This document shows positions 20,499 to 29,541 of a stretch of 64,000 bases of DNA, piece after piece. The notes beneath the pieces were generated by a model that did no database searches, was not told the DNA's origin, and saw only the letters and a program-made list of their open reading frames with translations. Source of the DNA: Kaistia terrae (GTDB lineage: Bacteria > Pseudomonadota > Alphaproteobacteria > Rhizobiales > Kaistiaceae). Position 1 is the first letter of the stretch. The number at the start of each line of letters is the position of its first letter. The stretch is taken from the NCBI RefSeq assembly GCF_026344005.1, contig NZ_JAPKNH010000001.1:806001-870000 (forward strand), read 5' to 3'. Made by a program: the position numbers and the translations under genes.

Positions 20499-21923
20499 CT
20501 ATTCGGCAGCGGCGACCGAGGCAGCGGCGGCCGAGGCCGGGCCATTGAGCCAGGCGGCCGTGTCGGCGCGGGCCCGGGCCGTCAGCGCCTTTCGCTTGGC
20601 GACCGTCTTGTCGGTGCCGCGCAGCTTGACGCCGGGCTCCTTCGGAACCTCGATCGGCGGGAACAGGCCGAAATTGACGTTCATCGGCTGGAACGAACGG
20701 CTTCCGGCCTCTTCATCGACGATATGACCGCCGGTGATGTGGCCGAGCAACGCGCCGAATGCCGTGGTCACAGGCGGCGGCACGGGCACTTCGCCGAGGC
20801 GTTCGGCAGCCGCGAAGCGGCCGGCGAGCAGGCCGATGGCGGCGGATTCGACATAGCCTTCGCAGCCGGTGATCTGGCCGGCAAAGCGCAGGCGCGACTG
20901 TGCCTTCAGGCGCAGCAGCGGATCGAGAAGTTTTGGCGAATTCAGGAAGGTGTTGCGGTGCAGGCCGCCGAGACGAGCGAACTGGGCGTCCTCGAGGCCG
21001 GGGATCATCCGCAAAACGTCGGTCTGCGCGCCATATTTCAGCTTCGTCTGGAAGCCGACCATATTGTAGAGCGTGCCGAGCGCATTGTCCTGGCGAAGCT
21101 GGACGATGGCGTGCGCCTTGACGGTCGGATTGCGCGGGTTGGTGAGGCCAACCGGCTTCATCGGTCCGAAGCGCAACGTCTCGCGGCCGCGTCCGGCCAT
21201 GATCTCGATCGGCAGGCAGCCGTCGAAATAGGGCGTCGAGGCTTCCCATTCCTTGAAATCGGCGGTGTCGCCGGCGATCAGCGCGTCGAGGAAGGCGTTG
21301 TACTGCGCCTCGTCCATCGGGCAGTTGATGTAGTCGGCCCCGTTGCCGCCCGGTCCGACCTTGTCATAGCGCGACTGGAACCAGGCGATGTCCATGTTGA
21401 TCGAGTCGAAATAGATGATCGGCGCGATGGCGTCGAAAAAGGCGAGCGAATCCGCGCCCGTCAGGTCGCGGATGGCCTCCGAAAGGTCCGGCGAGGTGAG
21501 GGGGCCGGTCGCGACAATGACGTTGTCCCATTCGGCCGGCGGCAGGCCGGCCATTTCGGTGCGGTCGATGGTGACGAGGGGGTGGTCTTCGAGCGCCTTG
21601 GTGACGGCTTGGGAAAAGCCGTCGCGGTCGACGGCGAGCGCGCCGCCGGCAGGCACTTGATTGCTGTCGCCCATGCGCATGATGAGCGAGTTCGCCATCC
21701 GCATTTCCGCATGCAGCAGGCCGACGGCATTGTTCTCGGCGTCGTCCGAGCGGAAGGAGTTGGAGCAGACGAGTTCGGCCAGGCCGTCCGTCTTGTGCGC
21801 TTCCGTCTCGCGGACAGGGCGCATCTCGTGCAGGACGACGGGGATGCCGCGATTGACGATCTGCCAAGCGGCTTCTGTGCCGGCAAGACCACCGCCGATG
21901 ATGTGAATTGGATCTGTTGTCAT
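20499..21923 (-). CDS. trmFO: tRNA m5U54 methyltransferase TrmFO (folate-dependent)
   Basis: TrmFO is an FAD enzyme that methylates U54 of tRNA using 5,10-methylenetetrahydrofolate. The 474-residue protein begins [20 protein letters not shown] with the FAD dinucleotide motif at residues 10-15. Cys53 in [10 protein letters not shown] and Cys201 in [11 protein letters not shown] match the two cysteines used for catalysis in characterised members. ATG 21923 is preferred to an upstream in-frame start because the flavin motif follows directly. The C-terminus is an Ala-rich tail. Confidence 0.95.
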
Positions 21924-21985: not shown

Positions 21986-22025
21986 CAAAAGAAAACGCCC
22001 GTCGGGGAGGAGGTCGACGGGCGTT
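21986..22025 (-). ncRNA. CCUCC-loop hairpin 1 of a cuckoo-type sRNA array, also terminator
   Basis: On the minus strand an 11-bp perfect stem (22025-22015 with 22004-21994) exposes the ten-base loop ACCUCCUCCC (22014-22005) and is followed by TTTTCTTTTG. The loop is complementary to Shine-Dalgarno sequences. Loop sequence, tandem arrangement and position downstream of a DUF1127 gene match the alphaproteobacterial CcsR/cuckoo sRNA family. As the last hairpin with a T-tract it should also end transcription. Transcription itself is inferred. Confidence 0.8.
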
Positions 22026-22035
22026 CTCTTGGGAT

Positions 22036-22068
22036 GGCGCATCGCGAGGGAGGAGGTTCGCTAGCGCC
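22036..22068 (-). ncRNA. CCUCC-loop hairpin 2 of the cuckoo-type array
   Basis: The inner stem GCGA/TCGC (22044-22047 with 22058-22061) and outer stem GGCGC/GCGCC (22036-22040 with 22064-22068), separated by a small internal loop, present the same ten-base minus-strand loop ACCUCCUCCC (22048-22057). It lies 10 bp from hairpin 1. Confidence 0.75.
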
Positions 22069-22076
22069 GTATCGCT

Positions 22077-22102
22077 GGGAACAAGGGAGGAGGTTTGTTC
22101 CC
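22077..22102 (-). ncRNA. CCUCC-loop hairpin 3 of the cuckoo-type array
   Basis: A perfect eight-bp stem GGGAACAA/TTGTTCCC (22077-22084 with 22095-22102) presents the same minus-strand loop ACCUCCUCCC (22085-22094). It starts 19 bases after the DUF1127 stop codon, so the gene and three hairpins probably form one primary transcript that is processed. Confidence 0.78.
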
Positions 22103-22121
22103 GCGCGAATTTCGTGTCGGC

Positions 22122-22280
22122 TTAGTAACCAGCCGTCTGCTTGGCGATCTGGGTGATATCGCCACGGTTGATGCCAAGGTCATTGAGCTCGCGGGACGTC
22201 AGACGCATCAATTCGCTGCAGGTCTCGCGATACTTGCGCCAGTTTCTGTAGGAAGTGAGGATGTTCGTAGCCACGGTCAT
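22122..22280 (-). CDS. DUF1127 small protein (CcaF1-like)
   Basis: The minus strand encodes 52 residues, too short for many gene finders. It starts MTVATNILTSYRNW, is rich in Arg/Lys in the first half, and ends with the DUF1127 signature SRELNDLGINRGDI plus AKQTAGY. GAAGGAA lies just upstream of the ATG. Small DUF1127 proteins include an RNA-binding member, CcaF1 of Rhodobacter, which is co-transcribed with and involved in maturing CcsR sRNAs. The three hairpins directly downstream make the same coupling likely here. Confidence 0.92.
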   Translation of the reverse strand: MTVATNILTSYRNWRKYRETCSELMRLTSRELNDLGINRGDITQIAKQTAGY

Positions 22281-22545
22281 TTTCCTTCGGACATCGGACA
22301 GTTAGGGAAGCGGTAGTTGTTGTCTGTGTGTCCACCGCTCTTGTTGATCCCAATGTAGGGGATGCTTCCCAAAACGAGCACTGTGAAAAATCGCATGGCT
22401 GCGCTGCGCATGACGCAAAGCAACATACAATTGTGATTATATATTGCACTGCAGCATTGCCCAAAGAGGCAGCATTCGCCACGATGCAGGCGAGTCGAGC
22501 CGGTTCGCTTCTACGAACGCGGCTTCCGCCATAGGGGGATTCCGG

Positions 22546-27748: not shown

Positions 27749-28059
27749 TCCGGCCTCCTTCCGTTACGGAGTTGCCAACTTACACGAGATGACGCAGCGA
27801 CGGAATTGCACGTCGTCGTGTCCGGGACAGCAGACGGATAGTGCTTCGCGCGCAACAAGGAGAGGCTGACTTCATGCCCGAGCCCGGATGCTGTTGCGTC
27901 ACCATCCTGTCTGGGGATATGAGAAAAGAACTCGACTGGACCCGGTGAAAATCCGGGTGGCTCTTCCGGCCGCCGATCCGCCGGACAACGCAGATTGAAA
28001 GCACGGACGGTTCTTGGCGCGAAAGCGCACCCTCCGCATCTGCCGCGAAGCATCCCATC
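27749..28059. other. Intergenic region upstream of the SulP gene
   Basis: These 311 bp between divergent genes show no coding frame of note. A short hairpin ACCCGG-TGAAAAT-CCGGGT lies near 27940. It resembles a fragment of a cobalamin riboswitch but lacks the B12 box and the rest of the core. No promoter can be named with confidence. Confidence 0.4.
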
Positions 28060-29541
28060 ATGAACAGTTTTTCCACCATCCGCCGCGAATGGTTTTCCAA
28101 CCTGCGTGGCGACATCCTTTCGGGCATGGTCGTTGCGCTGGCCTTGATCCCGGAGGCGATCGGCTTCTCGGTGATCGCCGGCGTCGATCCGAAGGTTGGC
28201 CTCTACGCCTCGGTCGTGATCGCCTGCGTCATCGCCTTCACTGGCGGTCGCACGGCGATGATCTCGGCCGCGACGGCGGCTACCGCCGTTCTGATGGGCG
28301 GGCTGGTGCGCGAATATGGCATCCAGTACCTGTTCGCTGCGACCATCCTCATGGGCGTGTTCCAGATCCTCGCGGCGCTGTTGAAGCTCGGTCTGCTGAT
28401 GCGCTTCGTTTCGCAATCGGTGATGACCGGCTTCGTCAATGCGCTGGCGGTGTTGATCTTCATGGCGCAGTGGCCCGAACTGGTAAACGTGCCGACAGCC
28501 ACTTACGGGCTGATCGCGCTGGGGCTTGCCATCATCTACCTGCTGCCGCGATTCACTCGGGCAGTGCCGTCGCCTCTGGTGGCAATCATCGTCGTGACGC
28601 TGGTCGCCTTCCTCTTCAAGATCGACGTGCGTACGGTTGCCCATCTTGGCGAGCTGCCGTCCACCCTTCCGAGCTTTGGTCTGCCGGATGTGCCGTGGAC
28701 CTGGGAAACGTTGCGCATCCTGCTGCCCGTCTCGCTGCCGCTGGCAGCGGTTGGTCTGTTGGAATCGATGCTGACCGCGCAGATCCTCGATGACATGACG
28801 GATACGCCGAGCAACAAGAACCGCGAATGCGCGGGGCAGGGCCTCGCCAACATGGCGTCGGCGCTGTTCGGCGGCATGGGCGGCTGCGCCATGATCGGCC
28901 AGTCCGTGATCAACGTTTCGTCCGGCGCGCGCGGGCGGTTGTCGACCCTGGTCGCAGGCTCCTTCCTGCTCGTGCTGCTGGTGGCGATGCAGGACCTCTT
29001 GGCGATCGTGCCTGTCGCGGCGTTGACGGCGGTGATGATCATGGTGTCGATCAACACCTTCTCCTGGCGCTCGATCCTTCGGCTTCGAAGCAATCCCTGG
29101 CCTTCGTCAGTCGTGATGCTGGCGACGGTCGCGACCGTGTTCGCCACGCATGATCTGGCCAAGGGCGTGCTGGTCGGCGTCCTGCTTTCCGGCGTCTTCT
29201 TCGCCGGCAAGGTCGCGCGCCTGAGCCGGGTGACGTCTTCCCTGTCCGAAGATGGGCGGACGCGAACCTACCGTGTCGAGGGACAGATCTTCTTCGCTTC
29301 GGCCAGCACCTTTGCCGAGTCGATCGACCTCCAGGAAGATCTGGACCGGATCGTCATCGACGTCCATGCTGCCCATTTCTGGGACATTTCGGCCATTTCC
29401 GCGCTGGATCGCGTTGTACTCAAAGCGCGGGCTCGTGGCCGGGTCGTCGATGTCGTCGGGCTCAATGCCGCGAGTTCGACCATGGTTGAACGCTTCGGCG
29501 AGCACGACAAGGATGGAACCGTTTCGGCTCCGGTCCATTGA
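28060..29541 (+). CDS. SulP-family anion transporter with STAS domain
   Basis: The 493-residue inner-membrane protein has the SulP core with about eleven hydrophobic segments, starting [35 protein letters not shown]. It ends with a cytoplasmic STAS domain (about residues 390-480, [22 protein letters not shown]). SulP proteins carry sulfate, bicarbonate or dicarboxylates; the short form seen here is common in proteobacteria and its substrate cannot be told from sequence. The segment [27 protein letters not shown] is the family signature region. Confidence 0.92.

Follow-up and report, generated by a model that had tools for sequence, protein, structure and literature searches.

The minus strand of the window (the whole 64-kb stretch of DNA analyzed) carries a short DUF1127 gene followed by three hairpins, and the locus probably encodes an alpha-r14 (NfeR1/cuckoo-type) regulatory RNA as the 3' part of the DUF1127 transcript. 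The components identified at the sequence level are the gene, the hairpins, the covariation of their stems, the family score, a conserved promoter segment and an over-representation of solute-binding proteins among the candidate targets. The locus is a well-marked addition to a known sRNA family, and its added value is a testable link, drawn from sequence, that ties LsrB/VtlR to DUF1127 and to the cuckoo sRNAs.

Three hairpins with a common loop follow a DUF1127 gene

The DUF1127 gene (22122..22280, minus strand) encodes a CcaF1-kind small protein of 52 aa and matches PF06568 with 50.6 bits (cut-off 23.3, E = 1.5e-13), which confirms the 52-residue DUF1127 gene that an earlier note had placed ahead of the hairpins. 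The minus-strand order is DUF1127 gene, 13 nt, three hairpins (22108-21989) and then trmFO (20499..21923, minus strand; TIGR00137, 526.1 bits), a conserved downstream neighbor that lies outside the sRNA unit. The loop 10-mer ACCTCCTCCC occurs exactly three times in the window (expected 0.09). All three exact matches are at this locus on the minus strand (22094-22085, 22057-22048 and 22014-22005), and none of 100 window shuffles contained three copies. Each copy, ACCUCCUCCC in the RNA, forms a 10-nt hairpin loop in both the minimum-energy and centroid folds. The fold energy is -58.8 kcal/mol compared to -34.4 ± 3.6 in shuffles (z = -6.8). Folding and shuffling therefore agree with the three minus-strand hairpins with an identical ten-base loop described earlier.

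The three loops belong, in the order given, to hairpin 1 (22072..22108), hairpin 2 (22036..22068) and hairpin 3 (21989..22030), all on the minus strand. The stem of hairpin 1 has 8 bp plus four outer pairs, that of hairpin 2 is 4+5 bp, and that of hairpin 3 has an 11-bp core that reaches 16 bp with an A/U extension; the lengths of 11, 4+5 and 8 bp reported previously are the same stems listed in plus-strand order. Hairpin 3 is followed by a U-rich tract and is likely an intrinsic terminator, in line with the earlier proposal that the last hairpin doubles as one. A simple terminator scan reported no terminator at hairpin 3, probably because it allows only loops of 3-8 nt.

The sRNA unit scores as alpha-r14

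The alpha-r14 covariance model (RF02344) aligned over its full length (1-123) to 21990..22113 (minus strand) with 70.3 bits (cut-off 58.8, E = 4.8e-12). This score bears out membership of the cuckoo-type sRNA family, but not the assignment to CcsR made in the same note. The CcsR1 model (RF02791) gave 29.4 bits, below its cut-off of 65.3, and the covariance models place the locus in alpha-r14, the NfeR1 branch; filing it as CcsR was rejected. A ctRNA_p42d match of 22.6 bits (cut-off 50) was taken as terminator resemblance.

The identification of the locus as an alpha-r14/NfeR1-branch cuckoo RNA in the CIN1 arrangement is well supported by these scores, and both are already published. The unit has the three hairpins, the CCUCCUCCC motif in each loop and the variable stems of alpha-r14. 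It resembles S. meliloti NfeR1 (Smr14C2, SmelC397; RF02344) in these traits, in its length of about 123 nt, in scoring above the Rfam cut-off and in having several copies per genome. Rhizobiales sRNAs with CCUCCUCCC hairpins are on record (PMC3927594), and alpha-r14/NfeR1 is reported with three redundant loops (PMC10746234, PMC7143759). The DUF1127 partner gene proposed earlier also stands and is known in print: the name CIN1 has been given to DUF1127 adjoining CcsR-like RNAs (PMC10253847), and a short DUF1127 gene beside CcsR-like hairpins was found here. The reported order in R. sphaeroides is DUF1127, then CCUCCUCCC hairpins (PMC10253847, PMC8307010, PMC8625941).

The locus differs from both published systems. 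It shares with CcsR1-4/ccaF1 of R. sphaeroides and with CIN1 the same-motif hairpins directly 3' of a short DUF1127 gene, but it has one three-hairpin unit rather than four RNAs, a score under the CcsR1 cut-off, a DUF1127 protein of 52 aa rather than the 71 aa of CcaF1, and no RpoH-type -35 was seen by eye. NfeR1 starts at its own promoter, whereas the DUF1127 frame separates the conserved promoter from the sRNA here; stand-alone transcription is a trait of the founding member NfeR1, not of the Rfam model. NfeR1 is reported to be Hfq-independent (PMC10746234), and Hfq co-precipitation may therefore not discriminate. A search that covered few subscription journals found no paper joining DUF1127 with NfeR1 or trmFO, and the link may already be in print elsewhere.

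The source genome has three alpha-r14 loci above the cut-off and five DUF1127 genes, and a DUF1127 gene precedes each of the three loci. Six weaker alpha-r14 matches fall below the cut-off (E = 0.00145 to 0.64); sub-cut-off matches also appeared in 3 of 14 control genomes in the same search. Tandem 9-mers at C1:660717 of the source genome have flanks without a comparable stem by eye and were set aside.

Loops are largely fixed and stems covary

The genus was represented by 43 loci, which are 40 regions (40 matches in 13 other genus genomes) plus the three source-genome loci. Three hairpins with CU-rich loops are present at every one. These loci contain 106 exact copies of CCUCCUCCC, none of which is paired in the predicted folds, with three exact 9-mers in 25 loci, two in 13 and one in 5. 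Loss of the loops with retention of the stems in close relatives, which the earlier note had named as refuting its reading, was not seen. The loops are not invariant: among the 129 loops we counted 23 that are non-exact (10 in hairpin 1, 2 in hairpin 2 and 11 in hairpin 3), with length and sequence changes in hairpin 1 and loops of 10 or 11 nt with a C-to-U change at the second base in hairpin 3. Seven loci (L003, L135, L138, L147, L158, L160 and L163) have a longer, altered, CU-rich hairpin 1 loop of 13-17 nt, and their hairpins 2 and 3 carry the motif or a one-base variant.

Identity over 14 trmFO-linked orthologues is 96% in the loops, 87% in the stems and 65% at other positions. The loop and stem values are 99% and 84% for hairpin 1, 92% and 94% for hairpin 2, and 97% and 85% for hairpin 3. 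Hairpin 2 alone therefore has a stem that is not less conserved than its loop, with two alignment rows shifted. Compensatory changes occur in 2 of 12 pairs of hairpin 1, 1 of 9 pairs of hairpin 2 and 5 of 16 pairs of hairpin 3. In the 14 orthologues, 30 alignment cells are changed on both sides of a pair compared to 11.4 ± 3.7 in shuffles, a value reached by 0 of 500, and slid structures gave at most 10 such cells. Two other measures are not outstanding: the number of pairs with a double change (8) was reached by 23 of 500 shuffles, and the count of further pair types by 497 of 500. The 43-locus alignment, in which the hairpins are partly misaligned, was left out of the pair counts. Judged by these alignments the loop is under selection, as the earlier note had argued, with stems that covary around loops that are largely fixed.

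DUF1127 and trmFO accompany the hairpins

An alpha-r14 match at E <= 1e-5 was found in 31 of 61 genomes, source included, and in 14 of 14 of the genus; this search used stricter filters, and matchless genomes may still hold weak copies. By our count a DUF1127 ORF precedes the hairpins at 42 of the 43 genus loci, and one alpha-r14 copy precedes trmFO in all 14 genus genomes searched. An automated tally gave 41, the difference being a stray 9-mer (L142:1588) that it read as the first loop. The trmFO neighborhood is shared with alpha-r14 of Rhizobium and Ensifer relatives.

A survey of trmFO genes in named genomes covered the 80 best matches out of at least 592. Among these 80, a cluster of at least two exact copies of CCTCCTCCC lies upstream of trmFO in 36, and DUF1127 is upstream on the same strand in 66. 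The 80 genes have 52 such clusters, 23 right behind DUF1127, 7 behind another cluster and 22 with DUF1127 not directly before them. Cluster-bearing loci of Rhizobium and Sinorhizobium/Ensifer run in the order hairpins, two DUF1127 genes, trmFO. Expanded CCTCCTCCC arrays precede trmFO at four loci: 8 exact copies in Pleomorphomonas (L059, 2550-2825), 9 in Pseudaminobacter (L031, 1821-2214), 7 in Aurantimonas (L072, 2106-2794) and 9 in Mesorhizobium jarvisii (L015, 2456-2889). Triplets recur every 157 nt in Pseudaminobacter, and most Aurantimonas copies have a period of 137 nt.

Outside the genus there were 26 alpha-r14 matches, of which the 20 fetched regions cover 23, including three from one genome of the same order (G049). 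That genome has six matches of up to 119.8 bits, compared to a genus best of 91.5. Two of its fetched loci (L186 and L187) have no DUF1127 by profile, and in a third (L188) two DUF1127 genes lie downstream, ahead of trmFO.

One relative (genome G013) has an alpha-r14 locus without DUF1127 (L166), in which the promoter directly precedes the sRNA. Its flanks match those of a locus in another genome (L144, G006) at 91% over 1565 nt and 84% over 1576 nt, and the 114-nt promoter piece is 86% identical. L144 has a DUF1127 frame between promoter and hairpins, whereas in L166 only a few dozen bases separate the end of the promoter from hairpin 1. The layout of L166 implies that this same promoter can be followed by the sRNA unit without the gene. 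Loss of DUF1127 in L166 appears likelier than gain elsewhere, because 42 of the 43 loci have the gene.

A candidate LysR-type box precedes the DUF1127 gene

A T-N11-A / TGC-N7-GCA box (TGCGTCATGCGCA; 22405..22417, minus strand) is a candidate LsrB/VtlR site at about -71 to -59, counted from the predicted start near 22346. All 43 genus loci, which are related copies and not independent, have TGC-N7-GCA at one and the same column of the model. An exact match to the consensus GCAT-N3-TG-N3-T, read on the plus strand, is located at 22393..22405 (about -59 to -47). This consensus lies inside the 60-nt segment in 26 of the 43 genus loci, with about 1% expected per locus, and its exact form is absent from 17. 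Conserved columns mark a predicted -10, CTACAT (22353..22358, minus strand), and a predicted -35, GTGCTC (22376..22381, minus strand), separated by a 17-nt spacer; the -35 assignment is putative, and the transcript would start at about 22346.

Comparable sites are reported in relatives. LsrB binds the NfeR1 promoter in S. meliloti; the proposed site is a T-N11-A box at -72 to -60 in which mutations abolish binding, and the -10 is given as CTATAT (PMC10746234). The LsrB/VtlR consensus GCAT-N3-TG-N3-T is reported at -61 to -49 of abcR1 (PMC8844928). A second report of this consensus describes direct activation of abcR1 and the small-protein gene atu1667 by Agrobacterium VtlR (PMC7486931). In Brucella, vtlR adjoins trxB, and VtlR is reported to drive three DUF1127 genes and AbcR2 (PMC12595884). 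The locus resembles this regulon (AbcR1, NfeR1, the Brucella DUF1127 genes with AbcR2, and atu1667) in box type and position, the distance being nearly equal to that in NfeR1, and in its kinds of target, DUF1127-type small-protein genes and anti-Shine-Dalgarno sRNA genes. The sRNAs and small proteins are separate targets in the regulon as reported, whereas here both stand behind one candidate box.

In the source genome a LysR gene whose Pfam domains are as expected adjoins trxB. No Rfam match, hence no AbcR, was found beside it, unlike lsrB/vtlR of S. meliloti and Brucella, and so trxB is the one neighbor that argues for orthology.

A promoter profile of 80 columns was built from 14 trmFO-linked upstream regions and run on 145 loci (80 trmFO loci, 60 fetched regions and 5 from the source genome). 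Among 29 further genus loci it found 27 at E < 0.01 and every one at E < 1; the reversed-sequence control gave one match (E = 0.77). The profile also matched DUF1127-hairpin units in Phyllobacterium (L009, E = 4.1e-4) and Mesorhizobium (L017, 6.5e-3), and stand-alone NfeR1-type genes in Rhizobium setariae (L071, 4.3e-5) and Ensifer adhaerens (L061, 1.6e-3). Weaker matches precede the stand-alone clusters L065 (0.014), L056 (0.071), L033 (0.078) and L046 (0.58). Of the 22 clusters that lack a DUF1127 gene immediately ahead, an upstream promoter match was found for 2 at E < 0.01 and 6 at E < 1. The profile matched one DUF1127 gene that no hairpin cluster follows as well (L037, 6.5e-3). A second-round model gave 93 matches at E < 0.01 and none in reversed sequence; it contains its own matches and is not independent evidence.

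A whole-genome scan for the box with up to 3 mismatches gave 25 sites compared to 2 in the control. The window site had no mismatch, two sites had 2 and 22 had 3; at this tolerance the scan misses the promoters of the other two alpha-r14 loci in the source genome. Rfam at gathering score found nothing on L194 (the trxB locus) or on four loci from the box scan (L197, L198, L200 and L208). A sigma-70 scan favored another site over the conserved promoter; this TGGGCA-16-TATAAT sequence (22463-22436, minus strand) lies upstream of the LysR-type box and outside the conserved promoter model. By eye, the -10 CCTACAT is close to CCTATAT, and no CTTG-type -35 is present at the conserved spacing. The likely switch is a LysR-type promoter (LsrB/VtlR) and not one of the RpoHI/RpoHII type, as described for ccaF1 in Rhodobacter.

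Solute-binding proteins are over-represented among candidate targets

Sites complementary to the loop were searched for ahead of start codons. The pattern GGGAGGAG-N3-11-ATG has 26 matches in the source genome compared to 5 for the reversed pattern. Dropping ORFs of <80 aa removed 6 of 25 distinct sites; by Pfam, 11 of the remaining 19 ORFs encode ABC solute-binding proteins and one more an ABC ATPase. The 16S-type Shine-Dalgarno controls AAAGGAGG and AAAGGAGA, with 7 of 25 sites dropped at the same length limit, gave no solute-binding protein among 18 ORFs (Fisher p = 1.3e-4), 6 of which have no Pfam family. The Pfam threshold was E <= 1e-3 for the test set and E <= 1e-5 for the controls, and all 11 test-set solute-binding proteins are far below 1e-5. 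GGGAGGAG is the best of three loop-complementary patterns tried. The full 9-nt loop complement before ATG was rejected as a target signature (5 sites compared to 5 in the control), and GGAGGAGG was rejected as weak, with 2 solute-binding proteins among 14 ORFs after 11 of 25 sites outside the GGGAGGAG list were dropped as <80 aa. Duplicate rows for a single site were removed from all these sets. Pooling the two loop-complementary 8-mers gives 13 of 33 compared to 0 of 18 (one-sided p = 1.2e-3).

Two other genomes from the same order, neither with an alpha-r14 match at E <= 1e-5, have 34 and 33 GGGAGGAG sites compared to 18 and 14 reversed sites, and 2 of their 11 GGGAGGAG ORFs are solute-binding proteins, with 29 of 67 rows examined and 10 of the 11 ORFs scanned. 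Solute-binding-protein genes may also have a general preference for a GGGAGGAG Shine-Dalgarno on other grounds. Two periplasmic ABC components and ntrB are among the reported NfeR1 targets (PMC10746234), with which the enrichment agrees. The anti-Shine-Dalgarno logic of the loops proposed in the earlier note was judged right.

Proposed mechanism and alternatives

The reading we consider likely for the whole locus begins with a LysR activator of the LsrB/VtlR kind, suggested by published relatives, that would bind about 50-70 bp upstream of the start. A single transcript would carry the DUF1127 frame and the three hairpins and end at hairpin 3. The hairpin part would accumulate as an sRNA, either by cleavage behind the stop codon, as processing in published relatives suggests, or from an unseen internal start. 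Each of the three loops could then pair with a GGGAGGAG-like Shine-Dalgarno and block initiation, the silencing being modeled on published relatives, and the outcome would be lowered uptake functions, above all ABC-transporter solute-binding proteins. By the same analogy, the DUF1127 protein may have a role in sRNA maturation.

The shared order of DUF1127 and CCUCCUCCC hairpins would also fit a narrow CcsR-like element, that is, a ccaF1-type operon driven by RpoHI/RpoHII, with RNase E processing aided by the DUF1127 protein and a role in C1 metabolism. We regard this as unlikely given the sub-threshold CcsR1 score, the single three-hairpin unit and a conserved upstream region that consists of a LysR-type box and GTGCTC-N17-CTACAT, to which the S. 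meliloti RpoH1 consensus CTTGAA-N16-CCTATAT fits only at the -10. The loops share ACCUCCU with the 16S 3' end, which we take to count for a general decoy that damps all GGAGG-led mRNAs, or for loops held by a protein. Solute-binding proteins, which make up 11 of 19 GGGAGGAG ORFs and none of 18 controls, make it very improbable; yet GGAGGAGG yielded only 2 of 14.

The hairpins could instead act only in cis, as a terminator that also stabilizes the DUF1127 mRNA at its 3' end, with the repeated loop a by-product of duplication. The terminator-like hairpin 3 fits this, as does the gap between the stop codon and hairpin 1, which at 13 nt has no room for a promoter. The loops, however, stay largely fixed while the stems change with compensation, L166 retains promoter and hairpins without DUF1127, and trans silencing of mRNAs by stand-alone NfeR1 is reported from S. 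meliloti (PMC10746234). A purely cis role is accordingly given hardly any weight.

If the shared promoter of the preferred alpha-r14 operon is real, it joins the VtlR/LsrB-DUF1127 literature with the NfeR1/cuckoo sRNA literature and would help explain the association of a small DUF1127 protein with an anti-Shine-Dalgarno sRNA. A broader, more tentative possibility is that in the Hyphomicrobiales an ancestral LsrB/VtlR-controlled module of box, DUF1127 and alpha-r14 beside trmFO underlies three separately described arrangements: the DUF1127-sRNA operon (this genus, Mesorhizobium and Phyllobacterium), NfeR1 on its own (Rhizobium/Ensifer) and VtlR-driven DUF1127 genes that stand alone. Its odds are lowered because the promoter model finds few stand-alone copies (2 of 22 at E < 0.01). 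Were it true, stand-alone NfeR1 would be derived by loss or separation of DUF1127, as in L166, and the CIN1 locus of Rhodobacter, for which an RpoH promoter is reported, would hold this pair under a different switch.

A further RNA element in the window

An Rfam sul1 RNA (RF03058) is present at 27935-27990 (plus strand) with 78.2 bits (cut-off 36.2). It lies about 70 bases before a 493-aa ORF (28060-29541, plus strand) that by eye resembles a SulP-type sulfate permease.
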